Assembly (NCBI RefSeq): GCF_003112435.1
Contig: NZ_BDOQ01000006.1
Span: 186,001-250,000 of the forward strand
Source of the DNA: Novimethylophilus kurashikiensis
GTDB lineage: Bacteria > Pseudomonadota > Gammaproteobacteria > Burkholderiales > Methylophilaceae
DNA: 64,000 nucleotides
Reading direction: 5' to 3'
Shown: piece by piece, positions 2,039 to 39,909 of the stretch
Layout of the letters: every line of letters starts with the position of its first letter
Numbering within the stretch: the first letter of the stretch is position 1
Made by a program: the position numbers and the translations under genes
The notes under the pieces: generated by a model
Database searches by the model: none
What the model was told of the DNA's origin: nothing
Seen by the model: only the letters and a program-made list of their open reading frames with translations

Positions 2039-5000
2039 TTATTGCTGGTCCAGCGTAGTCCGATCGAGATATTGCTCGACAAAGTTCAGAATGGCTTTGG
2101 ATTGATACTCACGCGCTAGTTGATGCAACTTATCGGCAAACGGCCGATAGCGCTCATCAAGTTCCACCAGCGCAGTTGCGTGCTGACGAATATCTCGCAT
2201 ATTTCCCCGTAGCGCCAATGCATGCAGGATCTTGATTTCCTGCTGCGGCGGCGCTTCGAGACGGCCGCTTTCTTCGTAGCGGACAGGAACCACCTCAACA
2301 TCGTTAGCCCATTCGATATTCAACAATGCGCCCATTTGCGCAAGCAGTTGATCGATGATCACCGGTTTGGCCAGAAACGCATTCATACCGGCCTCAAAGC
2401 ACTTTTTCTCATCCGAACTCGACACACTCGCTGAAATGGCAATGACAGCAACATCCTGCATCCCCGGCATTTGCCTGAGGCGTCGGGTAGCCTCCAATCC
2501 GTCCATTTCAGGCATGAGCACATCCATCAGAATAATAGGCGGACGGACGGCTTCTGCCTGCTTCAACGCATCGACACCGTTTTCAGCCTCGACTATTCCA
2601 AACCCCAGGGGAATCAACATGTCTCTAATGAGTTTTCGATTCTCCGCGAGGTCGTCCACGACCAATATCGTCTTGCGTTCACCCTTGTATCCAGTCACGA
2701 CCTGACGGGAAACGCCGGTAACAGGCATGGTGCCTTCTTCCGGCACCGCAATCTCAAAGCTGAATCGGCTGCCTTCGCCCAAGCGGCTCTCGACCTGAAT
2801 TTCCCCACCCATTAGACGCACGAACTGTTGACTAATGGCCAGACCCAGACCGGTTCCACCCATGCGTTGCCGGGCTTCCCCCGCTTGCTCGAAAGGCAGG
2901 AAAATAGTTCGCTGCCCCTCCTCCGCAATACCTCTGCCTGTATCCTCTACCTCAAACCTCAAGCGGCCTTCCGTGGTATGTCCAACACGGAGCAGCACTC
3001 GTCCGCGATCGGTAAACTTGATCGCATTGTCCAGAAGGTTCAGCAGCACTTGTCGCAGGCGTCGCTCGTCGGCATGGATCATCCGGGGCAAGTCGGGTGA
3101 GGTTTCGCAGACGAAATCCAGTTTTTTCTGGGCGGCCTTGATCCCCACCATTTCACTGAGGACTTGCAGGAACTTGTCAAAGAAAATGTCGTTGGGATAA
3201 AGCTCCAGCTTGTTGGCGTCGATCTTGGCCAGGTCGAGGATATCGTTGATCAGCGTCAGTAAATGCTCCCCGCTTTTCAGGATGATGTTCAATCCTGTGG
3301 TTTGCGACTCGGTGAGGTTCTTGTCGCGCAACAATATCTGCGCATAGCCGAGAATGCCGTTCAACGGCGTTCTCAATTCATGGCTCATCTTGGCGAGGAA
3401 ATCGCTACGCAAGCGGGCAAGACGCTCGGCCTCAGCCAACGCCGCCTCTCGTACCGCCTCCGTGCTCTTGAATTCGCTGATATTGCGGGTCACGCCCACA
3501 GTGCCCAGCAAAGTGCCGTCCTCATCCTGCACAGGGGCATAATAGATTTCCATCCACACGGGGGCAGTCTCGTTTGCCAGCATTTGCAGACGCTCCACGA
3601 TTTTCCGCTGGCGAGTGATCATCACTTCGGCCTCGTCGGCGCGGAAGAGCGCCGCTTGTTCAGCCGGCCACAAAACCTCGTCAGTCTTGCCCAGCATCTC
3701 GTCGACCGAATGTCCGCATGCGTCGGCACTCGCCTGGTTCACCGCCAGGTAACGCCCCTGCGTATCCTTGAGCCATGCCCCCACAGGCAGGGTGTCAAAC
3801 AGCTCCCGCACGTAACGGGTTTGCTGCCGCAGCTCGGCGGTACGGTCATGAACGCGTTGTTCCAGGGTCTCGAACGATTGTTGCAGTTCGGAGAGCATGG
3901 CGTTGAAGGCCTGGGCCAAGGCTCTCACTTCGTCTTCTGCCTGAATAACGATGGGTTGCAGTCCCGCCGTGGTACCGCGATGATCGAGATAGCGGCTCTC
4001 GTCCATCCGTTCCTTCTGTGTGATTTTGTTCACGGCCGCGGTCAAGTGAACGATGGGGTCGATCAGGCGCTTCACCCATAACGTTCCTACCGCCACACTC
4101 AACAACAGGATTCCGATGGCCATGGCCAGAATTGCAGCGACCGTCTGCCGGATGTTCTGCAATGTACTATCGCGGGGAGACGCCAGCGCCAGCGTCAAGC
4201 GAGGTTGGCGCTCGAATTGCCAGGGCAGCATGGCCACGTAGTAGGATTTTTCGCCGGCGGTGACAACGTGTCTCTGTCCATGCACCATCCGTCCATCTGC
4301 TTGTACCTGCCGAAGCATTTCGTCGGAAATCAGCCTAAGGCCAGGAAGCTCTAGAGGATGACGGCCATCCGGCGAGAACATGGCCGGGATACTGCCGGTT
4401 TTCCTTGCGACTTCGTCCAGTGCCGCTCGTCCGATGGATTTGCGAAAGACAACCACCGCAACAGTAACCGCCTGACTCCCTGGTTCCAGCTCGCGACGAA
4501 GCTTAGTGGGCCGGCCGGCAATCGACATATCCGAAAAGAAATGCACGATGGGGTTGTGCTCGGCGTCGGTCATGACATTTTCCACAATCCCCTGGATGGG
4601 CACCGTCACTTCAAGTACGGTCTCATCAGGCACGGGAAAATTAAAAGAAACCATCGGCTGCGCCAGCGCCGGCAGAGTCGTCGGTATATCTGGCATTCGG
4701 CCATGCTTCCATGACGGCCAGTTCTGGAAGGGCATATCGCCATCCGCATTGGCTGTGGCCGTGGTCCAGACTTCGCGATGGTTGTCCTGCCGGGTCATCA
4801 TCCCGACTTCCGTTTCCGAAACGTAGTAACTCAGCTTGTCGCGGGTATACACGGCAATACTGCTGAATCCCCCCGTATGCAAGGCGAGTTGCAACCGATT
4901 CAGCGAAACCGTCTTGCGGTAGGCAAGTGTCCTCGCCATTTCACTAAATCCGGACGCAGCGACAGATGTATCGAGATTGAATTCCAGCGTCAACAGCTCG

Positions 5001-5272
5001 GATAGCTGATTGAGGAGTGCCGCGTCGCCCACGGTGACCAAGGCCACCGACCTGAGCCGCGTCGTCATCGTTTGCAGATCGCTTTGCCATGCCTGCAAGG
5101 CATTGTCGAGATTGGCGAAGGCGGATTCCTGATTTTGCCGGTTGGTAAAATACGAGGCCAGCAACGCATCCAGCAAAGTGGTCAGCACCAGCACGACCAC
5201 CAGGACCAGCAAAATCCTCTGCTTGATGCCGTACCGTATCAGCTTGCCCCAGAAAAGTCGCACCTCGTTCAT
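2039..5272 (-). CDS. hybrid sensor histidine kinase with large periplasmic domain
   Basis: This 1077-residue inner-membrane kinase passes phosphate from a histidine to its own receiver. In order it has a membrane helix (about residues 19-41), a periplasmic sensor region (about 42-375), a second helix (about 378-400) and a HAMP domain. A PAS domain follows (about 485-600), then HisKA with SHELRTPLNGILGY (His near 630), an HATPase with GTGLGLAISQQF, and a REC domain (about 870-990, KTILVVDD, acceptor Asp in LMDVLMPEMDG). A helical tail of roughly 85-100 residues follows REC. It has no Hpt-type histidine motif and no recognised output domain. The ATG overlaps the stop of the solute-binding protein gene by four bases (ATGA), so kinase and binding protein are coupled. 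No partner regulator lies nearby. The ligand is unknown. Confidence 0.92.
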   Translation of the reverse strand: MNEVRLFWGKLIRYGIKQRILLVLVVVLVLTTLLDALLASYFTNRQNQESAFANLDNALQAWQSDLQTMTTRLRSVALVTVGDAALLNQLSELLTLEFNLDTSVAASGFSEMARTLAYRKTVSLNRLQLALHTGGFSSIAVYTRDKLSYYVSETEVGMMTRQDNHREVWTTATANADGDMPFQNWPSWKHGRMPDIPTTLPALAQPMVSFNFPVPDETVLEVTVPIQGIVENVMTDAEHNPIVHFFSDMSIAGRPTKLRRELEPGSQAVTVAVVVFRKSIGRAALDEVARKTGSIPAMFSPDGRHPLELPGLRLISDEMLRQVQADGRMVHGQRHVVTAGEKSYYVAMLPWQFERQPRLTLALASPRDSTLQNIRQTVAAILAMAIGILLLSVAVGTLWVKRLIDPIVHLTAAVNKITQKERMDESRYLDHRGTTAGLQPIVIQAEDEVRALAQAFNAMLSELQQSFETLEQRVHDRTAELRQQTRYVRELFDTLPVGAWLKDTQGRYLAVNQASADACGHSVDEMLGKTDEVLWPAEQAALFRADEAEVMITRQRKIVERLQMLANETAPVWMEIYYAPVQDEDGTLLGTVGVTRNISEFKSTEAVREAALAEAERLARLRSDFLAKMSHELRTPLNGILGYAQILLRDKNLTESQTTGLNIILKSGEHLLTLINDILDLAKIDANKLELYPNDIFFDKFLQVLSEMVGIKAAQKKLDFVCETSPDLPRMIHADERRLRQVLLNLLDNAIKFTDRGRVLLRVGHTTEGRLRFEVEDTGRGIAEEGQRTIFLPFEQAGEARQRMGGTGLGLAISQQFVRLMGGEIQVESRLGEGSRFSFEIAVPEEGTMPVTGVSRQVVTGYKGERKTILVVDDLAENRKLIRDMLIPLGFGIVEAENGVDALKQAEAVRPPIILMDVLMPEMDGLEATRRLRQMPGMQDVAVIAISASVSSSDEKKCFEAGMNAFLAKPVIIDQLLAQMGALLNIEWANDVEVVPVRYEESGRLEAPPQQEIKILHALALRGNMRDIRQHATALVELDERYRPFADKLHQLAREYQSKAILNFVEQYLDRTTLDQQ

Positions 5273-6600
5273 TGGCGACTCTGCGAATTGGGGTCGCGGG
5301 CAATAATATCTGCATCGATGTCATCGGCAGCCTTGCCCAGTGCGGCCTCAACGTTATTACCGGCGATAATATCGCTCATCGCCTTCGAAAAAGACTTGCT
5401 GATCGTGCTATAACCGGGAACGGCAGGACGAGGCACGCCATGCCCATGCAGCAATTGCTGTGCGTACACATTGAGAGGGGCGTCTCGACCATATAAGGGA
5501 GACTCCGCCAAGGCGGATTTACGCGCTGGGACCGCTCCATTTGCGTTGGTCATGCGCAGCACTTCTTGTGGAGTCATGAGATAGGCCAGGAACGCCCAGG
5601 CGCCTTCCGGGGCGTCGCACGTACTGGTAATGGCCCAACTCAAGGAACCCATCCCGGTTTTGATGCCATGGCCGAAATCGGGAAGCGGCAATAATATCAA
5701 ATCGTCTCCCAACGCCTTGCGGTAGCCTGGATATTTCCAGTGTCCGGTCCATGAAAGCGCGGTACGCCTTTTCTCGAAATCATCGTTGCGTTTGAAAATC
5801 GGCTGAGTCCACCCCTGCTTGAACCAGTATTGAAAGCGCTTCATTGCTGCGATCGATTGCGGGCCGTCAAGCACGCCGTGCGCCGTACGATAGCTTTTGC
5901 GATCGATCAAATCGCCGCCGAATCCCTGAAGTATGGGGGAATAGGCATAAGCATAGAATTCGCTCATCCCCGCATACACCGTCATGCTGAGTGGGTAATC
6001 CACGCCTTTTACCGATGAGAGCTTAACCAGGATGTGCTCGAACTCTGACAAACTCCAGGGTGCATCGACAGTCGGTATCCTAACCCCAGCCATCTCCAGG
6101 TAGCGTTTGTTCGCCCATAGCCCTAACCCCGAATCGAATTGCCCCAAGGTGTACAGCCGGCCGTCGTAGGTTCCCTGGGCGATAATCGAAGGCAGCAGGT
6201 CGTTTCTCAAATCGCGGGAAACAAACTTGTCGAGAGGCTGCAGATAGCCCGGCCACGCGAAGTCGGCCACATACGGACCGTCGACTTCCAGCAAACACGG
6301 TAGCCCTCCGGTCAGGGCCACGCTTTTTACCCAGTCGGCATAATTTCGGTAATTGGATGAGAATAATTCGATTTTGTAGCGATGCTGAAGACGATTGAAA
6401 TTATCCGTGGAGGCTTTAAGCACACCCGCTTCATCGGTATTGAGCGCTGCGCGCGTCCAGACAGGTATAGTTTTTGGTGAACGGGCATCACTTTTGGAGA
6501 CTGGCTCGGCTATCGCTAACGCAGCCCATACCGGCAGAAGTACGAAAAACCACGCAGCTAAGCGCCACAATCCCCTAAAAGGAGTAAATGAGCGCTGCAT
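5269..6600 (-). CDS. periplasmic solute-binding protein, family 1 type
   Basis: This 443-residue protein has an N-terminal signal sequence (hydrophobic FVLLPVWAALAIA, likely cut before EPVSK near residue 31). The body resembles ABC-type extracellular sugar-binding proteins of family 1: VWTRAALNTDEAGVLKA at the N-terminus, a hinge region with GRLYTLGQFDSGLGLWANK, and EGAWAFLAYLMTPQEVL near the C-terminus. No permease or ATPase gene is nearby. The start lies 26 bases inside the receptor gene upstream, and the stop overlaps the kinase start by four bases. This context suggests it serves as the ligand-sensing partner of the kinase rather than for transport (inference). The substrate may be a carbohydrate but cannot be read from the sequence. 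Confidence 0.88.
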   Translation of the reverse strand: MQRSFTPFRGLWRLAAWFFVLLPVWAALAIAEPVSKSDARSPKTIPVWTRAALNTDEAGVLKASTDNFNRLQHRYKIELFSSNYRNYADWVKSVALTGGLPCLLEVDGPYVADFAWPGYLQPLDKFVSRDLRNDLLPSIIAQGTYDGRLYTLGQFDSGLGLWANKRYLEMAGVRIPTVDAPWSLSEFEHILVKLSSVKGVDYPLSMTVYAGMSEFYAYAYSPILQGFGGDLIDRKSYRTAHGVLDGPQSIAAMKRFQYWFKQGWTQPIFKRNDDFEKRRTALSWTGHWKYPGYRKALGDDLILLPLPDFGHGIKTGMGSLSWAITSTCDAPEGAWAFLAYLMTPQEVLRMTNANGAVPARKSALAESPLYGRDAPLNVYAQQLLHGHGVPRPAVPGYSTISKSFSKAMSDIIAGNNVEAALGKAADDIDADIIARDPNSQSRQ

Positions 6601-9101
6601 TAATGGTACGTCCGTTGATAGAGCGGGCCGTCGTAGCCCCAGTTGATGGCACCCCGGCTCCAGCGTTGGGTATCTCGGTAATGCCTATCCGGTTGAAGAG
6701 ATTATTGCCGGAAAGCGATAGCGACCAGCCTTTCTCCAGCACATAGTTCAGAAAGCCGTTCACCTGCACGTACCCAGGATTATCCAGGCCATAGCCAACA
6801 GAGGGGAACTTCGATAAGCCAATGAAGTTAAGACCGAAGTCGAGCTTTCCAATGTGATAGGCCGGGGTCAACTGGTACATAAATCGTGGATTGATCTGAT
6901 AGCCGACACTCTGCGGATTCTTATCGGCTCGTGTCACTGTGCCATGTGTATAGGTGAGCCCACCAAACAGGTGGAACCCATGTAGATTGTAGCTACCTTC
7001 AAGTTCCAGTCCGTCCGCCTCGTACTCACTACTGGTGAACCGATTAACAATCGACGTAATGTCCTGGTCGGTCACTGAAGTTGTGGCATGAAACAATGTA
7101 GCGAATAAACTCGCACGACTGCTTCGCCATTTGATGCCACCCTCAACCTGTTTTACGGAATTAACTGCAACCTCTTTGGCGATACTGCCGTCCGCATGGA
7201 TTCCACCACCGAAAAGCACTCGTTCGGCATTCGCACGCCCGCCTCGGCTGATACGGCCGAAAACAGCCAAATCCGGGTTAAGCAGATAGTTTGCACCGAA
7301 TGAATAGGACAAGTAGCGGACGGTATAGTCAACCGGCCTTTTACTTGCCGGGTCGACGATAGGCACCTTTTGTTCGGGTGGTTCGATCACGCCGTCGCCA
7401 TTGACATCCATGATCTTCGTCCCGGTCGATCCCGCGTAGGAGCCTGAGGCACTGGCAACGTCATAGCGCAAACTGCCGTCCAAGTTAATCGGCCCTTGTT
7501 GCCACCCCAATGCGAGATAAGGCGCGTCGGTGTCGTATTTCAGCTTGTAAGAGTGAACACAACAGTTCTTCCAGGCCGGCTCCCCATAGGCAACTAATCC
7601 CTTCTGGGTGACGACCTGGCCCAGGGAATTGACGACATCTAGCAGCGCCGCATTCTTACCCTTGACCTCGAGCAGATAAGTGTTCCAATGCCAATCCTGG
7701 TTGATCATCTGCTGGGATTTGAAATAGCCTAGGGTGACATTGGTGTCGCCATAGTTGCCGCTGTTGAAACGCTTAGTCAGCTTCAAGTCGTTGGCGAAGT
7801 TACCGAGATCATCGAGTGTCACATTGAATAAATGCGTACGCACCGCGAGACCGTTTCCGTTCAAGGAAGCAGGGTCGGTAATCACCTGGCCTGCGCGTGG
7901 ACCGGTGGCATATCTCAACGTAGCACCCGGTCCCCCGATCGAAGTCGCCAGCGCAGATGCAGTATTCACCTCGGCCGGGTAAGGCCCCACGAAACGGCCG
8001 GAAGTCGAGGCGATGCGAAATTTGTCCTCGATCTTCCAGTCCTTTGCCAGATCGAATGCCGCTTCGATCCCGAATGCCTTGCTGTTTGAATAGTAACCGT
8101 CTGCAATATCCGTACTGACCGCCTGTCCATTTCGATTTACCGAAATATCGTGGCGGAAATATTTGGACTGCATGGCGCCGTCCAGCACATCGAAACTGGG
8201 CAGCGATGAAAAATGCGCAGCAGAAGTCGTGCCCGAGACCCTGATCGGCACAGGCAGATAGACCGGGGCACGGTCGTTCAGCAGTTTGAAATTGAGACGG
8301 ACGTAGCCGGAATCGAATTCGCGGGTGATGTTGCCTTTGATCTGCCCCCCGTCTTCAGCTTGATACCCCACCGTGCGGGGACCTTCACCAAACCGGTAGA
8401 ATCCGCCGACATGGAACCGCCAGCCGTCGTCGAGCGGCTTGCCGTAATCGAAATCCATCCGGGTATGGTCGTAATCCAGGCCCCGAGTCAGCCGGACTCT
8501 TCCCCCGGCTTCCTCCCCCGTCTTGCTGATGAAGTTGAATACGCCGCCGGGGGGCGTTGCTGGCAAACGTCGCAGCAGAACCGCCGCGGATGACTTCGAG
8601 GCGATCAAGATTGTAATCGGCCCGAACGAAGGTATCCGCAGTGCCGAAATCGATGTCGCCGAAATCCAGCACGGGCAGCCCGTCTTCCTGATATTGCATG
8701 AGTTTGGCCCCACCGCTCAGCGGCAAACCGCGGGCGGTCGCATTGGCATTGCCTTCGCCACCGGACGATTGCACCAGTAACCCAGGGACGTTATTGAGGA
8801 TTTCTGCTGCGTTGCCAGGGACTGATTGTTCTATCTGATCCTGCGTGAGGATACTGGCAGCCACGCTGGAACGCATGCTTGTCAGGGGATTCGCAGTCGC
8901 GGTCACGACGACAGTATCTAGGTTGACCGGAGAAATCGGCGAGCGAGCTACGGTAGGGCCTTCTTCCTGGCTTATTCCGGCCTTTTCATTTACTGTTTCC
9001 GTCGCTTCGGCATCCTGGGCAAGCACAGCGAAAGGCTGCAGTATCGATATCGCAGCCACAAGAAACGACAGGCGATTTTCCTGATGCAATTGGTTCAGCA
9101 T
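6575..9101 (-). pseudogene. TonB-dependent outer-membrane receptor, split by a one-base frameshift
   Basis: This gene encodes a TonB-dependent receptor of about 840 residues in two frames. The first part starts at the ATG at 9101, behind a GGGGAGGGGAG ribosome site. It has a signal peptide (LSFLVAAISILQPFAVLAQ) and most of the plug (VEQSVPGNAAEILNNVPGLL, DRLEVIRGGSAATFASNAP). Reading then shifts at a run of six C (plus strand G, 8549-8554). The second frame resumes with PGGVFNFISKTGEEAGG and runs through a full barrel to the terminal aromatic, IYSF. Five C would restore one frame. The rest of the barrel is intact, so this may be a sequencing error, a phase-variable tract or a very recent mutation. 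An EF-hand-like loop (DVNGDGVIEPPE) lies at 7373-7408. The 3' end overlaps the binding-protein gene by 26 bases. Confidence 0.85.
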
Positions 9102-9412
9102 ACTCCCCTCCCCCTTGCCGCGACAAACATTCATTAACCGCATTCTTGGATTTATTATAGGAATAATCTTAGCACTGTTTATGGTTATACCGTCATCATA
9201 GCACTAGCAAAGCTGAGGATTTAATGACTTTATCACCAATACTTTCTGATAGTTACATACTTACATGCATGAAGAATGGCTTAGATTGACAGGGAACAGA
9301 TGCCAAGCAACAGGCGGGAGACGGGAGCGTTTAAGCGTTGCTATGTTGCCCAAAAAAACTCGTGAACCGAGCCTTTTTGCAGGACAGTCGCGATAATTAG
9401 AGATGGGAAAAT
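9102..9412. other. intergenic region upstream of the receptor gene
   Basis: No coding region is visible here. The part next to the receptor start is AT-rich and holds a TATAAT-like -10 on the minus strand (plus strand ATTATA, 9156-9161), with no convincing -35. Nothing matching a Fur box was seen. Near 9350-9380 a short hairpin (CTCG, loop, CGAG) flanked by T-runs on both strands may end transcription of the KTSC gene. Confidence 0.4.
9349..9381 (-). terminator. weak hairpin with T-runs after the KTSC gene
   Basis: On the minus strand GGCTCGGTTCACGAG is followed by seven T. The stem is short (four or five pairs), so this is a weak candidate. The other strand also ends in a T-run, so it could act both ways. 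Confidence 0.35.
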
Positions 9413-9683: not shown

Positions 9684-11678
9684 TCATTTTCCGTTCATGG
9701 TGGGGTGCCCTACCACCTGCCTGAACGTGCACACACGGTTGCGGCCTGCGTTTTTGGCAAGATAGAGCGCCTGGTCTGCCTGGTTCAGCAATGTATCCAC
9801 GCTCGCACCTTTGCCCTCCAGTGTGACCACACCCATGGATACGGTAAAACTTAGAGTCTTATCCCCCGGCAAAGTGACGCGGGTATCAGCTAAAGCTCGA
9901 CGCAGGCGTTCAGCAGCATCTTCGGCGGCATCGCTTCCGGTTTCCGGTAACAACACAGCAAACTCCTCACCGCCAATGCGCCCGATCACATCGAGGTCGC
10001 GTAGTGTCGTCTTGCAGATATTGGCCAGATGTTGCAGCACCAAGTCGCCTATCTTGTGACCGTAGGTATCGTTGATGAGCTTGAAGTGGTCGACATCCAG
10101 CATGAAGATTGACAAAAGGCCGCCGTAGCGCTGCACACGCGCCAGTTCATTTTCTGCCTGCTCAAGGAAATAGCGGCGGTTTGCAAGCCCGGTGAGGTAA
10201 TCCGAATAGGCACGGCGCTCCAGCTCTTCATAAGCATAACGGTTCTCGATGGCGATGCTGGCAACATTGGCAGCAAAACCGATGCGCTCGATATCCTGCG
10301 CATCCGGGCTCTGGGGGTGCGGGTGATAGACTGCAAACGTACCCAATACCTTGCCACGCGAGGAAACAATGGGCTCGGACCAGCAAGCGCGCAATCCGGC
10401 CGATTGCGCCAATTGGGCATAAGGCTTCCAGTAGTCGTGAGTCTGGATATCTTCCACGATCACCCGCTGGCCCAAGTACGCCGCTGTTCCGCACGAACCT
10501 ACGCCCATGCCGATCTCCACCCCATCGATAGCATGGTTGTAGAAGTCGGGTAGATGCGGTGCCGCACCGCAAAACAGGTGCTGGCCTTCCTTATCCAGCA
10601 GCAGGATACTGCAAAGGGCTGTGGGATCTTCCGATTCAATTTGCTCGACAATAGCTGCAAGAATGACAGGCAGCGCAACGCCCTTGGCAACCATTTGCAA
10701 GATGGCATCCTGGGCACGCTTGCGCTGATCCTGTTTCCAGCGTTCGGTAATATCGGTGAAATTAACCAGCCGCAAGGGGCCTACCCACGAGATCCTAACC
10801 ACAACTCGCCGTTTGCTGCCGTCCTTGCACGTGATATCGGCTTCAAGTTCGGGCGGGATAGTGCCGGTTTGATGGGCCAGCAACGCGCTGTTGACCCAGG
10901 GTTTGATGATCTTATATCGGTAGTTCTCGTCTGGATATGCCAGTCGATACCAGGTTTCGGTATCGGGCAGGTCTTCCAGCGTATAGCCAAACAGGTGGGT
11001 AAACTGCCGGTTGATGTATTCGACATTGCCATCGCTGTTAGACCAGCCAATGGCGACCGGGGATGATTCCAGAATATCCTCGAGCTCGATACGCCTCTCG
11101 CTATGGACGTTGACTTCATATTCAAGCGCTGCCTGGCGAATCTTGGCCAGCCCACTTTGCGCCAGCATATTCGCCATTTCCACCATGACCTGCATGAGGG
11201 CCTCGGCGCGCACTTTTTCCACGACAGGAATAGCAGCAATGGCCGCCAGATAGGACTCCTCGTCGTAGCCGAACTGACGTGCCTGGTTGCGGAAAAACTC
11301 GAGATCGGGAGGTGCATGAAAAATCTGCCCGAGAAACAAGGTCGCCAGTTGCCGGCCTTCAATCAAAATCGGCGTCGCGTAGTCCATCAGCCCATTGCGG
11401 CAAATCCCTCCGCTGATCTGTCCCTGGCAAAGATCGCGCATGATATCGAGGTTGCTCTCACGGCAACGCTCTGCCGAAGCCGGCTGCATGCGGTGAAACA
11501 ATTCGCATGCATTCTTCCCGCTCGACATTGCCAGCAAGGTCCCGTCGGCATCGACCAACCCATTGGGAATTCCTGTCGTTTCATAAAACCGCTCCAGCAA
11601 TCGCTTGAACGCAGGAATGTCTACCAACTCTTCAAAGCGGTATGAGGCAATAATGGGTTGCGTGGCAAAACTGGGCAT
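9684..11678 (-). CDS. diguanylate cyclase with PocR, PAS and GAF sensor domains
   Basis: This 664-residue, apparently cytoplasmic protein makes cyclic di-GMP. Domains in order: a PocR-type ligand-binding domain (about 15-165) with several cysteines (CELF, ERCRES, RDLCQG, GGICRNG), a PAS domain (about 190-310), a GAF domain (about 330-480) and GGDEF (about 495-655). The active-site motif is GRIGGEEFAVLLPE. RDLD five residues before it is an intact product-inhibition I-site, so the enzyme should be active and feedback-controlled. PocR domains bind small metabolites in known regulators; the ligand here is unknown. The gene is the first of the run leading to the receptor and kinase, and a plausible promoter lies at 11768-11801. 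Confidence 0.9.
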   Translation of the reverse strand: MPSFATQPIIASYRFEELVDIPAFKRLLERFYETTGIPNGLVDADGTLLAMSSGKNACELFHRMQPASAERCRESNLDIMRDLCQGQISGGICRNGLMDYATPILIEGRQLATLFLGQIFHAPPDLEFFRNQARQFGYDEESYLAAIAAIPVVEKVRAEALMQVMVEMANMLAQSGLAKIRQAALEYEVNVHSERRIELEDILESSPVAIGWSNSDGNVEYINRQFTHLFGYTLEDLPDTETWYRLAYPDENYRYKIIKPWVNSALLAHQTGTIPPELEADITCKDGSKRRVVVRISWVGPLRLVNFTDITERWKQDQRKRAQDAILQMVAKGVALPVILAAIVEQIESEDPTALCSILLLDKEGQHLFCGAAPHLPDFYNHAIDGVEIGMGVGSCGTAAYLGQRVIVEDIQTHDYWKPYAQLAQSAGLRACWSEPIVSSRGKVLGTFAVYHPHPQSPDAQDIERIGFAANVASIAIENRYAYEELERRAYSDYLTGLANRRYFLEQAENELARVQRYGGLLSIFMLDVDHFKLINDTYGHKIGDLVLQHLANICKTTLRDLDVIGRIGGEEFAVLLPETGSDAAEDAAERLRRALADTRVTLPGDKTLSFTVSMGVVTLEGKGASVDTLLNQADQALYLAKNAGRNRVCTFRQVVGHPTMNGK

Positions 11679-11928: not shown

Positions 11929-14514
11929 TCAGTTTAGATTCGCGCCGGTATGGAGTTTCTGAGACGGACGGCTGATATGGTAACCCTGGGCGTAATCGAT
12001 GCCCAATTCGCTCACCGCTGCCAGGATGTCCGCATCCTCGACGAACTCCGCGATGGTCTTGACTTTCAGTTCCTTGGCCAGCGTCACGATACTCTTGATG
12101 AATGCCAGGTAAACCTCGTCCTGCAGCATGTTGCGGATAAATTCGCCCTCGATCTTGATGTAATCGACGGGGAAACGCTTGATGTACTGGAAGGATGAAT
12201 AGCCGGAACCGAAGTCGTCGATGGCAAAGCTGAAGCCTTGCATCTTGATGTCCAGAACGAATTTCTCCAGCAGACTGAGGTTGCTTACGGTCTCGCGCTC
12301 GGTGATCTCGAACACGATACGTTCCGGCGCGATATCGAACTCCTTGGCCAAGCGCTGCACGCGCCCCACGAATTCGCCGACGATCAAGGCCTTGGGCGAC
12401 AGGTTGACGAACAGCATGCCCTGGTAATTCTGCTCACGCATCTGTTCGAAAGCCTTCTCGATCAGCTGGTAATCCATCTTGTGCACGATGCCCATGCTCT
12501 CGGCTTCTTCGATAAAGTCGTTGGCGACGATGAGGCGGTCATCCATCTGGATACGCATGAGCAGTTCGTGGATGCCAATCTCGCCGTTTGCGGCGTTACA
12601 AATGGGCTGGAAGAACGGCACGATGCGGCGCTGGTCCAGCGCATTCTGCACCATGAGGATTTTTTCGCCGGCCTGACGGAACACCTCGGCCATCTCGTCC
12701 TCGTTGGGGATGGCGATGGCGTTTTTGCCAGAGCGCTTGGCCTTGTACATCATGTTGTCGGCGACCAGGAACAAATCCTTGGGGTCCTCGCCGTGCTGGG
12801 GGTAGACAGCGATGCCGACCGAAGTCGTGGTCTTGACGCGCAAACCGTCCGGCGTCGGCATCACATAGGCCTCCAGCCTTTCCACGATGCGCTGGGCGAT
12901 CATGTGTGCCTGGGTATCGTTGGCCTCGGGCAGAATGATGCAGAACTCATCGCCGCCGTACCGTGTCAACAGATCGCCGTCGCGCACCACGCTATGTAGG
13001 ATGTCCGAGAAGGCTTGCAGGAACAGATCGCCAAATTGGTGGCCGAAGCGGTCGTTGATGGTCTTGAAGTTATCCAGGTCGAGCATCATCACAGCGAAAT
13101 GCTGGTTATGTCGCTTGGATCGCCCTACCTCATAACCCAACAGTTCCCAGAACATGCGCTGGTTGTAGATATTGGTCAGCGGGTCGCGGGTGGCGTAATA
13201 CTCCAGGTCCTTGGTGTATTTGTAGATCGCCTTAACCGAGCCCACCAGGTTGAGCAGCGTGGTAAGAATGCTACCGATGACCATGCTGCGCACTTCATCC
13301 TGGGCCATGGTCGACTGCACGCCGATGCCGACGATGCCGCCGATACGCGGGGTATCCAGCACCAGCGACTTGGTTTGCAGTTCCAGCTCATGCTCGCTCA
13401 GGTCGGCCAGCATGCTCTTCTGGTCGGCGATGTTGTGCACCACGTTGAGCAGCACGCTACCGTGCAGCATGGGGTTGCCTTCCAGATGCTTGTGCAGGAA
13501 GTGCTCGAATACCTCGCGGGTCTTGTCGGACGGCGTATTGCGCCAGAACACCTCGCACTCGTAGGCTTCTTCCTCGATGCGGAAAATCGTCACCAGCGCA
13601 TAAGCGTCGATGATGGGCGTAATTTCGATGAGGAGGGAGCAGATGAATTCGCGCCAATCTTTCACCACATTGGAGGTGATGATGAATTTTTCCAGCAGGC
13701 GGATTTCGAATTCGAGCACATTCTTGTCCACCGCCACCTGGCGGATTTTCTCGACCAGTTCGTGTACGTGGCCGAAGGTCTCGTTGAACTCCTCGAAACC
13801 GAAATTAACGCTATCGATATCCAGCTGATGGAAATCCTTGACCGAGTTGATCGTTCCCACCTTGTGACGGAAGCGGTCGGCAGAAACCTTGATACGACCT
13901 GCCGCAAAGGCAGAAATGGCGGTTGCGATCAACAGTACCAGCGTTCCCAGCAGCAAGAACAGACCAACGTAATAAATTCGCACCTTGGGCGTGACCGGCT
14001 CCAGTCGATAGTGCGAGGCGATCACCCCCAGCACATCTCCCTCGCGCGCTTCGGCATGGCACCGCAAGCAATTCGACTGCGCCTTGACCGGATAAGCGAA
14101 GCGGATACCTTGTTCATCCTCGCTGATCACCTTTTTCCCGCTCGACATCGCCTGCAAAACTTCGGCTGACGCAGGTGGCAGATTTACGACGCCGTATCGA
14201 TTGGCAAGCCCGGCGCTACGATAAACATCCAGTCGGGTGATATTGGAAAAGGCATTCTTGGTCGTCTCGGACAAGGCCTGGACCTGGGCATGCGTCGCTC
14301 CGGTTTCCAGCGAGCGGGTCAGGATGCCGTAGTTCTGCCAGGAGATTTCCTGGGCGGTTTCCCGCGCGTTCTCGCCGAACAGTTTTTCATACAACAAGGA
14401 AGAAGCGAGCGTGGCACCGAGGAACACCATGGCGGCAATGCCGACAGTCGCGGCAAAAACATAGCCCCGCATGGTGGTAAGAAGAAGAATCGCTTTGTGG
14501 TAGATCTGTTGCAT
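11929..14514 (-). CDS. c-type haem sensor GGDEF-EAL protein
   Basis: This 861-residue membrane protein carries both c-di-GMP synthesis and breakdown domains. It has a membrane helix (about 17-38), a periplasmic DUF3365/Tll0287-like domain with one haem-binding CLRCH motif (near residue 150), and a second helix (about 185-210). A linker of about 220 residues of unknown fold follows, then GGDEF (about 440-600) and EAL (about 615-850). The cyclase motif is TRYGGDEFCIILPE with an RDGD I-site. The EAL domain keeps its metal and catalytic acids (HELLMRI in place of EALLR, NLSPKAL, EITERE, DDFGSGYS, KIEGEF), so both halves may be active. The haem suggests redox or gas sensing. The gene stands alone, with its own terminator. 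Confidence 0.9.
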   Translation of the reverse strand: MQQIYHKAILLLTTMRGYVFAATVGIAAMVFLGATLASSLLYEKLFGENARETAQEISWQNYGILTRSLETGATHAQVQALSETTKNAFSNITRLDVYRSAGLANRYGVVNLPPASAEVLQAMSSGKKVISEDEQGIRFAYPVKAQSNCLRCHAEAREGDVLGVIASHYRLEPVTPKVRIYYVGLFLLLGTLVLLIATAISAFAAGRIKVSADRFRHKVGTINSVKDFHQLDIDSVNFGFEEFNETFGHVHELVEKIRQVAVDKNVLEFEIRLLEKFIITSNVVKDWREFICSLLIEITPIIDAYALVTIFRIEEEAYECEVFWRNTPSDKTREVFEHFLHKHLEGNPMLHGSVLLNVVHNIADQKSMLADLSEHELELQTKSLVLDTPRIGGIVGIGVQSTMAQDEVRSMVIGSILTTLLNLVGSVKAIYKYTKDLEYYATRDPLTNIYNQRMFWELLGYEVGRSKRHNQHFAVMMLDLDNFKTINDRFGHQFGDLFLQAFSDILHSVVRDGDLLTRYGGDEFCIILPEANDTQAHMIAQRIVERLEAYVMPTPDGLRVKTTTSVGIAVYPQHGEDPKDLFLVADNMMYKAKRSGKNAIAIPNEDEMAEVFRQAGEKILMVQNALDQRRIVPFFQPICNAANGEIGIHELLMRIQMDDRLIVANDFIEEAESMGIVHKMDYQLIEKAFEQMREQNYQGMLFVNLSPKALIVGEFVGRVQRLAKEFDIAPERIVFEITERETVSNLSLLEKFVLDIKMQGFSFAIDDFGSGYSSFQYIKRFPVDYIKIEGEFIRNMLQDEVYLAFIKSIVTLAKELKVKTIAEFVEDADILAAVSELGIDYAQGYHISRPSQKLHTGANLN

Positions 14515-37179: not shown

Positions 37180-37266
37180 GCTTATGTATCCCAACCCGTT
37201 AAAAAGCTTCAATTATTTCATAAATCACGGGTGAAGGTAAGCACGGACGAGCGTGCAATAGGGCTA

Positions 37267-38871
37267 TCAGCTGGTTTTGAATCGTCCTACCAAGGCCTCC
37301 AGTTCCTGTGCCCGCGACGAGATGCGATGTGTCCCGTGCGAAGCTTCTTCGGCATCCTTGGCTGTCTTGCCAGAGATATCGACGATCTGGCGAATGCCCG
37401 TATCGACCTGGGCTACAAGCCGGGTCTGCTCCTTTGCCGCGCCAGTAATCTGCACATTCATGCGGGCGATATTGCCCACAGCGCTGCGTACGCTTTGCAA
37501 GGAGGAATCGATCTCGCAAGCTTGATCGACCGTAGACTGACTGCGAGCATTGATCGCCTGGATGGTTTCGACGGCTTCCTGCATGCCGCGATGGAGTTTC
37601 TCGATGATCGCCTCGATCGTCGCCGTGCTCTTCTCCGTTTCGCTGGCCAGCTTTCGCACCTCGTCCGCCACCACGGCAAATCCGCGACCAGCCTCCCCTG
37701 CTCGCGCTGCCTCGATAGCGGCATTCAAGGCCAGCAGATTGGTTTGCGCCGCGATATCGCGGATCACCGTCAAAGCCGAGGCGATACTCGTGGAATCCCG
37801 ACCGACGGTAGAAATAACCGAAACGCCTTTATCCACGAGATCGGCCAGGCTACGGATTTCCGTCACGGCTACTTCGAGCACCGCCAGTGCTTGCATAACC
37901 TGCCCGTCGGTTTGCTGTGCAGCCGCTTCAGCCGCTTCGGCATTGGCATTGACGTCGGTTGCGGCCTTCGACACATCCTCGACCGCAGCTCGAATCCGTT
38001 CGCTTTCCTCATGCTGGCGTCCGGCACTCTCATGCACTTCGGACATGAACCGGGTCAACGCCCCGCTCTCGCTGTGAACATCCCGGGTGGCTTGATTGAC
38101 TTGCCCTACCATGCCGGCGATTTTTTCCAGGAAGGTATTCAACGCGGCAGAAGCCTCCGCCAGCTCGTCTTCGCCGCGCACCTTCAAACGCCGCGACAAA
38201 TCGGCCTCGCCGCGGCTCAAGTCGACCAGGGCCCGGTTCAACTGAACGACCGGCGCCAGCACGCTGCGCATCAGGAAGAGCGACAAGCCGATGACGAAAG
38301 CCAGTCCAATCACCATGCCAACAACAGCCAGACGCACCGCCTGACTGACTTTCTGATCGCTGCTCTCGGCCGTTTTCTTTGCCACGGCAATACTGGTAGT
38401 CACCAACGCATCGAGCGCTTGCTGCAAGTCGGCTTCGGCAGCATCCATCACGTGATCGGCAGGAATCTCCTGACGGGGCTGGGTGGCGAGTCTGGCCGAG
38501 GCCAACTGTTGCCACTTGGTCAAAGCCACTTTGACTTGCTTGAGATGCTGTTTCACCTCGTCGTCGTGCGCTACATCCGCGATTCCATCCAAGGCCTTGC
38601 GCACTTCCAGCAAGCGCTCGTCCAGCCCCTTCTTGAGCGTCTCGCCGGTTTCCTCATCGGTAAACTGCAAACGGCTCTGCAAGTAATCGCGGCTGTTACG
38701 GAAACGGTCCCAGGCGGTTCGGGAATAATTGACAGTGGCAATCGGCGTGGAAGAAACACCTTTAGTCACTTGCCCCAGCGACTCAACCTGATAGATGGCG
38801 TAAAGCCCTTGGGCAACGCCCAGCAGGAGCAAAACGGACACCGCCAGCAAAATACGGAACTTGATTGTCAT
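37267..38871 (-). CDS. methyl-accepting chemotaxis protein
   Basis: This 534-residue transmembrane chemoreceptor has an N-terminal helix (about 7-27) and a helical periplasmic domain of the four-helix-bundle type (about 30-185). A second helix (about 190-212), a HAMP domain (about 213-265) and the signalling domain follow. The hairpin tip has [19 protein letters not shown] and [15 protein letters not shown], the CheA/CheW contact. No pentapeptide methylation tether (NWETF type) is at the C-terminus. It starts 12 bases after the dihaem peroxidase gene, so the two share a transcript. The ligand is unknown. Confidence 0.93.
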
Positions 38872-38883
38872 GATAGCGCTCGC

Positions 38884-39909
38884 TTACTGGGGAACGGGGA
38901 GATTGGGCATGGCAATAGCAGCGCTATCGCTGGAGAGCGTTTTCATGAACTCCACCAGATCCTTGACGTCCTCATTGGTCAACGGCACGGGCTGCATCAA
39001 GGGCGATCGACTCGGCCGCGGCGCTCCGCCCTGGATATAGTGTTGAACGACGACATCCAGTGTGGTTAGGCTACCGTCATGTCCATAGGGCGAACGATGT
39101 GCCACTTCGCGCAGGGTCGGCGTTTTCATGGCATACAAGTCTTCCTGCTTACCGGTGATTTCGAAACGACCCTTGTCCAAGTCGTCAGCCGTACCGATGT
39201 CGTGAAATTTCTCGTCGGTGAAATTCCAACCGCTATGGCACAGGTTGCATCGCGCCTTACCGTTAAACAACACGAAACCACGTTTGGCAGAGGTCGAAAT
39301 CGCGGAATCGTTACCTTCTACCCAGCGGTCGAACGGGGTCGTACCAGAGACCAGGGTGCGCTCGTACGTGCCGATAGCCTTGAGAATGTTGTTCTCGGTA
39401 ATGCCTTCGCCGGGAAACGCCGTATTGAAGGCCTTGCGGTAATCGCCCACGGCGCTCAGCCGCTTCACCACGTCCCCCAACTTGATATCCATTTCGGCCT
39501 TCGATTCGATCGGCCCCTTGGCCTGCTCTTCAAGGCTCGAGGCTCGCCCATCCCAGAACATGTGGGAAGCCCAGGCACGGTTCAATACGGTGGGCGACTG
39601 ACGTCGCAAAGGCGCGCCGGCTGCGCCAATCGCCTTGGCAAATGGGACTTCCCACCCGAACGAGGGGTTATGGCAGCTTGCGCAGTTGAGGTTCTGGTCG
39701 CGCGAAAAGCGAGGATCGAAAAACAGCATCTTGCCCAACGCTGCTTTTTCAGGGGTGTAGGGATTTTGAACCGGGAAAGGAATGCTCGAGGGACGTTTAT
39801 ACAGGGCCTTGGTTTTATCCAGTTCGTCCGCCTGAATCCATCCGGCATGAACGGCCAGCAATAAAACACCGCCGGCGAGAATACGTCGCCAATGGGAATA
39901 TCTCCTCAT
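38884..39909 (-). CDS. dihaem cytochrome c peroxidase family protein
   Basis: This 341-residue periplasmic protein of the CcpA/MauG family has a signal peptide (LAGGVLLLAVHAGWIQA) and two haem-binding motifs, CASCH (near residue 78) and CNLCH (near 224). The tail segment KTPTLREVAHRSPYGHDGS supplies the usual haem ligand and calcium-site region. Known members reduce hydrogen peroxide with electrons from cytochrome c; some, like MauG, oxidise other proteins. It is the first gene of a two-gene unit with the chemoreceptor. Confidence 0.9.
   Translation of the reverse strand: MRRYSHWRRILAGGVLLLAVHAGWIQADELDKTKALYKRPSSIPFPVQNPYTPEKAALGKMLFFDPRFSRDQNLNCASCHNPSFGWEVPFAKAIGAAGAPLRRQSPTVLNRAWASHMFWDGRASSLEEQAKGPIESKAEMDIKLGDVVKRLSAVGDYRKAFNTAFPGEGITENNILKAIGTYERTLVSGTTPFDRWVEGNDSAISTSAKRGFVLFNGKARCNLCHSGWNFTDEKFHDIGTADDLDKGRFEITGKQEDLYAMKTPTLREVAHRSPYGHDGSLTTLDVVVQHYIQGGAPRPSRSPLMQPVPLTNEDVKDLVEFMKTLSSDSAAIAMPNLPVPQ

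Follow-up and report, generated by a model that had tools for sequence, protein, structure and literature searches.

Does a TonB receptor that is encoded together with a periplasmic solute-binding protein (SBP) and a hybrid histidine kinase serve to import a sugar or to detect it? This question is raised by a locus of Novimethylophilus kurashikiensis, located in a 64,000-nucleotide stretch of a 32-contig draft assembly (the window; contig NZ_BDOQ01000006.1, positions 186,001 to 250,000). Read along the minus strand, the receptor (from 9101) is followed by the SBP (6600-5269) and then by the kinase (5272-2039). Inspection of the open reading frames and Pfam matches has revealed no permease or ATPase gene beside the trio, as a first-pass annotation of the window had already stated. 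We propose that the trio constitutes a sensory module rather than an importer, namely an SBP-dependent sensor kinase with its own outer-membrane receptor, a reading to which we assign a probability of roughly 0.68.

The SBP (443 residues, 5269-6600) has an apparent Sec signal peptide, does not contain a lipobox and matches PF13416 (E=9.5e-21) and PF01547 (E=2.9e-17), the PF01547/PF13416 scores of 75.2 and 64.1 bits lying well above the curated cut-offs of 27 and 26 and covering both lobes. Twenty-two binding-protein sequences in the PDB match it, and the idea of a fused or new type of SBP was dropped, the protein being an ordinary member of family 1. No close homologue was found in 100 near relatives of the host, where just weak paralogues (22-23% identity) occur, and homologues at E below 1e-20 were detected in 19 of 369 genomes of the class, the host itself counted, the others being 29-48% identical and mostly adjoining MalF/MalG/MalK-like genes. 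A wider scan of 84,980 species retrieved no relatives with the single SBP sequence as query and required an alignment query, which yielded 176 relatives. The best 80 were taken, and their neighbours were annotated with MalF, MalG and MalK profiles as well as with the receptor and kinase of the window. In the top five by score (L048 to L052), a kinase gene lies directly behind the SBP gene and a permease is absent. The remaining 75 (L053 to L127) are mostly importers of the MalEFGK type, where an SBP 40-50% identical is followed nearly always by MalF, usually by MalG and often by MalK, and where, in contrast to the window, no kinase lies directly behind the SBP; two of these loci (L083 and L089) also possess a related TonB receptor. 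In a few of the 75 no permease was seen, either because the contig ends or because none is present, as in L067. No permease-linked SBP is more than 50% identical to that of the window.

The five kinase-linked loci belong to an Azoarcus metagenome-assembled genome (MAG; L048), a Pseudomonadota MAG (L049), the named strain Pseudoduganella namucuonensis (L051) and a single Anaerolineales (Chloroflexota) MAG that contains both L050 and L052. The complete set of receptor, SBP and kinase occurs in L048, L049 and L051 and is thus not unique to the strain under study, while L050 has the SBP-kinase pair with no receptor. The SBPs of the window and of L048 to L051 form one clade, with a support of 99 in a quick tree of 83 rows and of 100/99 in a careful tree of 40 rows, and in all five the SBP gene neighbours that of a membrane-spanning kinase that has an extracytoplasmic domain, an adjacency maintained across four further genomes from two phyla. 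No tight clustering with permease-linked transport SBPs was observed, although the window SBP descends from the importer SBP family. Positions that are near-invariant in the permease-linked SBPs are replaced in the kinase-linked clade, among them R58, P83, E84, N88, K207, N209, D272 and P398 (window numbering).

The hybrid histidine kinase (1077 residues, 2039-5272) comprises a transmembrane helix (~20-38), an ectodomain at residues 42-375 (4148-5149), a second helix (~378-396) and HAMP, PAS, HisKA, HATPase_c and receiver domains, with conserved H, N and G boxes. The receiver (residues 869-978, 2339-2668; PF00072, E=1.1e-23) has its aspartate in ILMDVLMPEMDG, and the last ~90 residues match no Pfam family, Hpt included. 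Five Hpt domains are encoded elsewhere in the genome, and a phosphorelay is therefore possible, with its pairing to this kinase only conjectural. In all five kinases of the SBP clade, two transmembrane helices ~358 residues apart enclose the same ectodomain, which is 32-50% identical among them. It has no meaningful match in Pfam for any of the five homologues, even at E up to 1, and none among PDB sequences, and a Foldseek comparison of its model with the PDB returned nothing with E below 0.001. In a second fold comparison of the model (pLDDT 56), dCache/CHASE4 sensor domains account for most of the 15 best rows (Z 6.3-8.3), a resemblance which we take as a hint only. The ectodomain was found in none of 398-399 other genomes of the order and on no plasmid, and among the 369 genomes of the class a single marginal match of 78 residues was obtained. 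These results indicate that the system is rare and patchy, bearing in mind that the scan depends on exact peptide patterns and that members will have been missed.

Two exceptions are informative with regard to what the SBP is inherited with. The kinase cores of the window, L048, L049 and L051 are 57-73% identical, whereas the kinase of L050 has a core only 32-35% identical, is devoid of PAS and receiver domains and has a receiver encoded by a gene of its own behind it; nonetheless, it has kept the ectodomain at 32-36% identity, and its SBP falls inside the clade. Conversely, in L052 a core of the window's type (58-62%) is joined to a different ectodomain (15-17% identity, with a dCache match), and the tree places its SBP not in the clade but, with weak support, beside those of Rhizobacter, Polaromonas and Derxia, which are permease-linked. 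From these two cases, which do not amount to a statistic, the SBP clade appears to track the ectodomain rather than the core.

L052 (9842-14229), the second SBP-kinase pair of its MAG and one with a kinase core of the window's type, was considered as a member of the trio group and set apart because of its ectodomain and of the position of its SBP. A single clade of all six kinase-linked SBPs was not rejected (p-AU 0.245) and a single origin is thus allowed, while the pair may perhaps represent an independent recruitment.

The first-pass annotation had described three overlapping genes. The gene order and the overlaps of 26 nt (6575-6600, receptor barrel frame and SBP) and 4 nt (5269-5272, ATGA, SBP and kinase) hold, but the receptor beginning at the ATG at 9101 is divided between two frames. 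Its 5' part (8556-9101, within the open reading frame 8385-9143) encodes a signal peptide and the plug (PF07715, E=3.7e-14), and its 3' part (6575-8548, within 6575-8713) encodes the beta-barrel (PF00593, TonB_dep_Rec, E=5.6e-23) in the other frame. Six consecutive C stand at the break (8549-8554), whereas the conserved SNAPGG motif calls for one base fewer. As sequenced, the plug frame remains open until a stop at 8385 and the receptor would terminate after 238 residues, ~1.8 kb ahead of the SBP start, so that the 26-base coupling requires the frameshift to be bypassed or to stem from an error of sequencing. The frameshift was left unmended, and plug and barrel were employed as separate queries since they lie in different frames. 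In L048, L049 and L051 the receptor is encoded by one uninterrupted frame, L048 being in frame at the site matching the run. The window plug is 58% identical to that of L048, and the barrel is 61% (over 658 residues), 28% and 43% identical to those of L048, L049 and L051; no paralogue of the barrel was found in the host genome. The receptor lies upstream of the SBP on the same strand in L048 and L049, and upstream on the opposite strand (divergent) in L051. In each of the three loci where receptor and SBP genes run in the same direction, the two overlap (26 nt in the window, ~11 nt for L048, 4 nt for L049), and this recurrence argues that the overlap is more than chance. The sequence is consistent with either a recently broken gene or a sequencing error.

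As for the ligand, three Pseudoalteromonas plasmids and Saccharobesus encode relatives of the receptor at 44-45% identity, and these lie beside genes for LacI, sucrose phosphorylase and major facilitator superfamily (MFS) proteins. Among the permease-linked SBP relatives, L083 adjoins a sucrose phosphorylase (above the curated cut-off), and others lie beside glycoside hydrolase (GH) genes of families GH32 (L054 and L116) and GH100 (L053) or beside sucrose-phosphate-synthase-like and PfkB genes (L058). In the host genome itself, genes for PfkB, a sucrose-phosphate synthase/phosphatase (above cut-off), a GH13 enzyme and MscS follow one another on another contig (L151:1787-7743; contig C3, ~341.8-347.7 kb). 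Although it has no curated match, the GH13 enzyme looks like an amylosucrase, and the gene content marks the row as a cluster for sucrose (a compatible solute), which may include a release valve of its own. Because relatives of the receptor and of the SBP sit in sucrose operons and the host has this cluster, a sucrose-like disaccharide is favoured as the ligand, a leading guess to which we would give slightly less than even odds.

Taken together, the following course of events can be proposed. The TonB receptor would admit a scarce sugar into the periplasm, most probably sucrose or a similar glucosyl disaccharide to judge from its relatives. There the soluble SBP, a family 1 protein, would bind the sugar and, either in its loaded form or through a change of shape, would dock on the kinase ectodomain, as their co-inheritance suggests. 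Docking would in turn alter autophosphorylation and phosphotransfer to the attached receiver, the domains for which are present. The SBP itself would have been recruited from a sugar importer of the MalEFGK type with loss of the permeases, a direction of change that fits its clade and gene neighbourhoods. The contact between SBP and kinase is what we infer from the genes, as are the direction of the signal and the passage of the sugar through the receptor. A bolder version, which we put forward tentatively and hold to be less likely than not, is that of an envelope-spanning relay dedicated to sensing, where TonB energy delivers a trace sugar to an SBP that never transports and that reports to the kinase through a new ectodomain family. 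Such a unit would move between phyla, shed the receptor where an outer membrane is absent and accept a different kinase core. To our knowledge, Chloroflexota possess no TonB outer membrane.

Several observations weigh against a sensory module. Just five loci make up the SBP clade, four of them with a receptor, and the receptor of L049 is distant (28-32% identity) while that of the window is frameshifted. No dedicated response regulator gene adjoins the kinase, and the AlphaFold model of the ectodomain, for which five sequences were used, is of low quality (mean pLDDT 56). The substituted SBP positions may reflect an altered ligand. With respect to the ligand, it is relatives and a different contig, rather than the trio locus, that supply the sucrose context, and one close receptor relative, in Sphingomonas taxi, sits in a polysaccharide gene cluster. 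Furthermore, adjacency of an SBP gene and a kinase gene need not mean that the two are linked, as has been reported for AgtS and AruS (PMC11113362).

The last point bears upon the most serious of three rival explanations, according to which the kinase senses a ligand of its own directly, while receptor and SBP together scavenge sugar and pass it to a facilitator, the SBP and kinase being related in function with no contact between them. No binding to AgtS or AruS was seen for the SBPs encoded nearby (PMC11113362), dCache domains, which together with CHASE4-like domains supply most of the best fold matches of the ectodomain, are often ligand-binding themselves, and MFS-type genes, one of them within the sucrose cluster, are present in the host genome. 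We nevertheless regard this explanation as unlikely, given that the SBP clade tracks the ectodomain and not the core and that the adjacency has been kept in two phyla. Less probable still is that the SBP serves an ATP-binding cassette (ABC) importer encoded elsewhere, its co-transcription with the kinase being incidental. Most members of the SBP family are importer subunits, and unlinked subunits are known, such as the CuaABC ATPase (PMC10384115). However, a search of the whole host genome with a MalF-type permease profile gave three weak places only, which gene order and sequence suggest to be operons of the molybdate, sulfate and phosphate types (mod-, cys- and pst-like); no cognate MalF/MalG permease thus adjoins the SBP or occurs elsewhere in the genome, a permease lies beside none of the clade members, and the residues conserved in permease-linked SBPs are gone from the clade.

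It is similarly improbable, and if anything slightly more so, that the locus is decaying in this genome, with the receptor a pseudogene and the SBP and kinase either relics or independent of the receptor. The one-base frameshift in the six-C run and the absence of the ectodomain from all other genomes sampled in the order would fit such decay. Against it, the barrel is otherwise open over the 658 codons that remain 61% identical to L048, SBP and kinase are intact, the latter with its sequence boxes in place, and one homopolymer error in a draft of this kind would give an identical picture. The sensory module is accordingly the explanation that we retain.

For a membrane hybrid kinase under the control of an SBP, and for an oligosaccharide ligand, the first-pass annotation had looked to ChiS of Vibrio as the nearest parallel; the likeness is real, but closer systems exist in CuaD-CuaS-CuaR, XylFII-LytS, TorT-TorS and LuxP-LuxQ. 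We know of no TonB receptor in the ChiS operon. The SBPs of XylFII-LytS, LuxP-LuxQ and TorT-TorS belong to other families (PBP type I). Moreover, ChiS itself binds DNA (PMC8092284), and its chitooligosaccharide-binding protein also serves uptake (PMC8449061). Structures of the complexes have been solved for XylFII-LytS (Clostridium), LuxP-LuxQ (Vibrio) and TorT-TorS, in which a periplasmic or extracellular binding protein controls the kinase via its ectodomain (PMC6321045). With no PDB match to that of the window, these ectodomains are unrelated to it by sequence, and the sets include no receptor gene. In Ruminiclostridium cellulolyticum, the principle has been shown experimentally for CuaD-CuaS-CuaR, where a second, high-affinity SBP is encoded with its own kinase and regulator (PMC10384115). 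As is proposed for the window pair, CuaD is a family 1 sugar SBP dedicated to sensing, encoded in the same operon as the kinase to which it binds and distinct from the SBP of the importer. The differences lie in the lack of an outer-membrane receptor, a separate response regulator, the Gram-positive host and the importer operon next door (PMC10384115). For the receptor, a parallel is offered by the sux locus of Xanthomonas campestris, where the sucrose TonB receptor SuxA is required for a rapid response at low sucrose (PMC1790865). Relatives of the window receptor lie in comparable operons of LacI, sucrose phosphorylase and MFS genes, a likeness that concerns operon content. Unlike the window locus, sux signals via a LacI repressor after cytoplasmic uptake, with neither SBP nor kinase (PMC1790865).

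No description of the trio of receptor, SBP and kinase was found in the open-access literature searched. Few cases of SBP-controlled kinases are known and they are hard to predict, SBPs encoded near two kinases of Pseudomonas aeruginosa having failed to interact with them (PMC11113362). Since gene neighbourhood, SBP phylogeny and ectodomain agree here, with L050 and L052 as informative exceptions, the system would be well suited to testing in which cases adjacency signifies interaction. In addition, an uncharacterised ectodomain family gains a candidate protein ligand, and the question arises of whether bacteria run a TonB receptor for detection instead of feeding.

Further SBP genes were encountered in other settings. 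On contig C13 of the host genome (~212.8-216.7 kb; L150:4780-8690), a second SBP, PotD-like and of the SBP_bac_8 family, is followed 2 nt further on by a gene for a membrane sensor with a dCache-type ectodomain and HAMP, PAS, GGDEF and EAL domains, no permease gene being seen adjoining. Both SBP_bac_8 proteins of this genome therefore adjoin transmembrane sensors. This SBP-sensor pair resembles the NspS-MbaA arrangement of Vibrio. Three distant relatives of the window SBP (~27-34% identity; L041, L042 and L043), from one family of the class, have no permease or kinase directly adjoining and lie beside conserved secreted-looking and HDOD-like proteins. Could these represent another non-transport use of the SBP family?

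Within the window, the minus strand carries genes for two cyclic di-GMP proteins immediately upstream of the trio, with PocR-PAS-GAF-GGDEF (9684-11678) and GGDEF-EAL (11929-14514) domains according to Pfam, and a link with the output of the kinase is possible. Further along, a long plus-strand open frame (37231-39069), whose product has no Pfam match, overlaps a long open frame on the minus strand (37267-38871).

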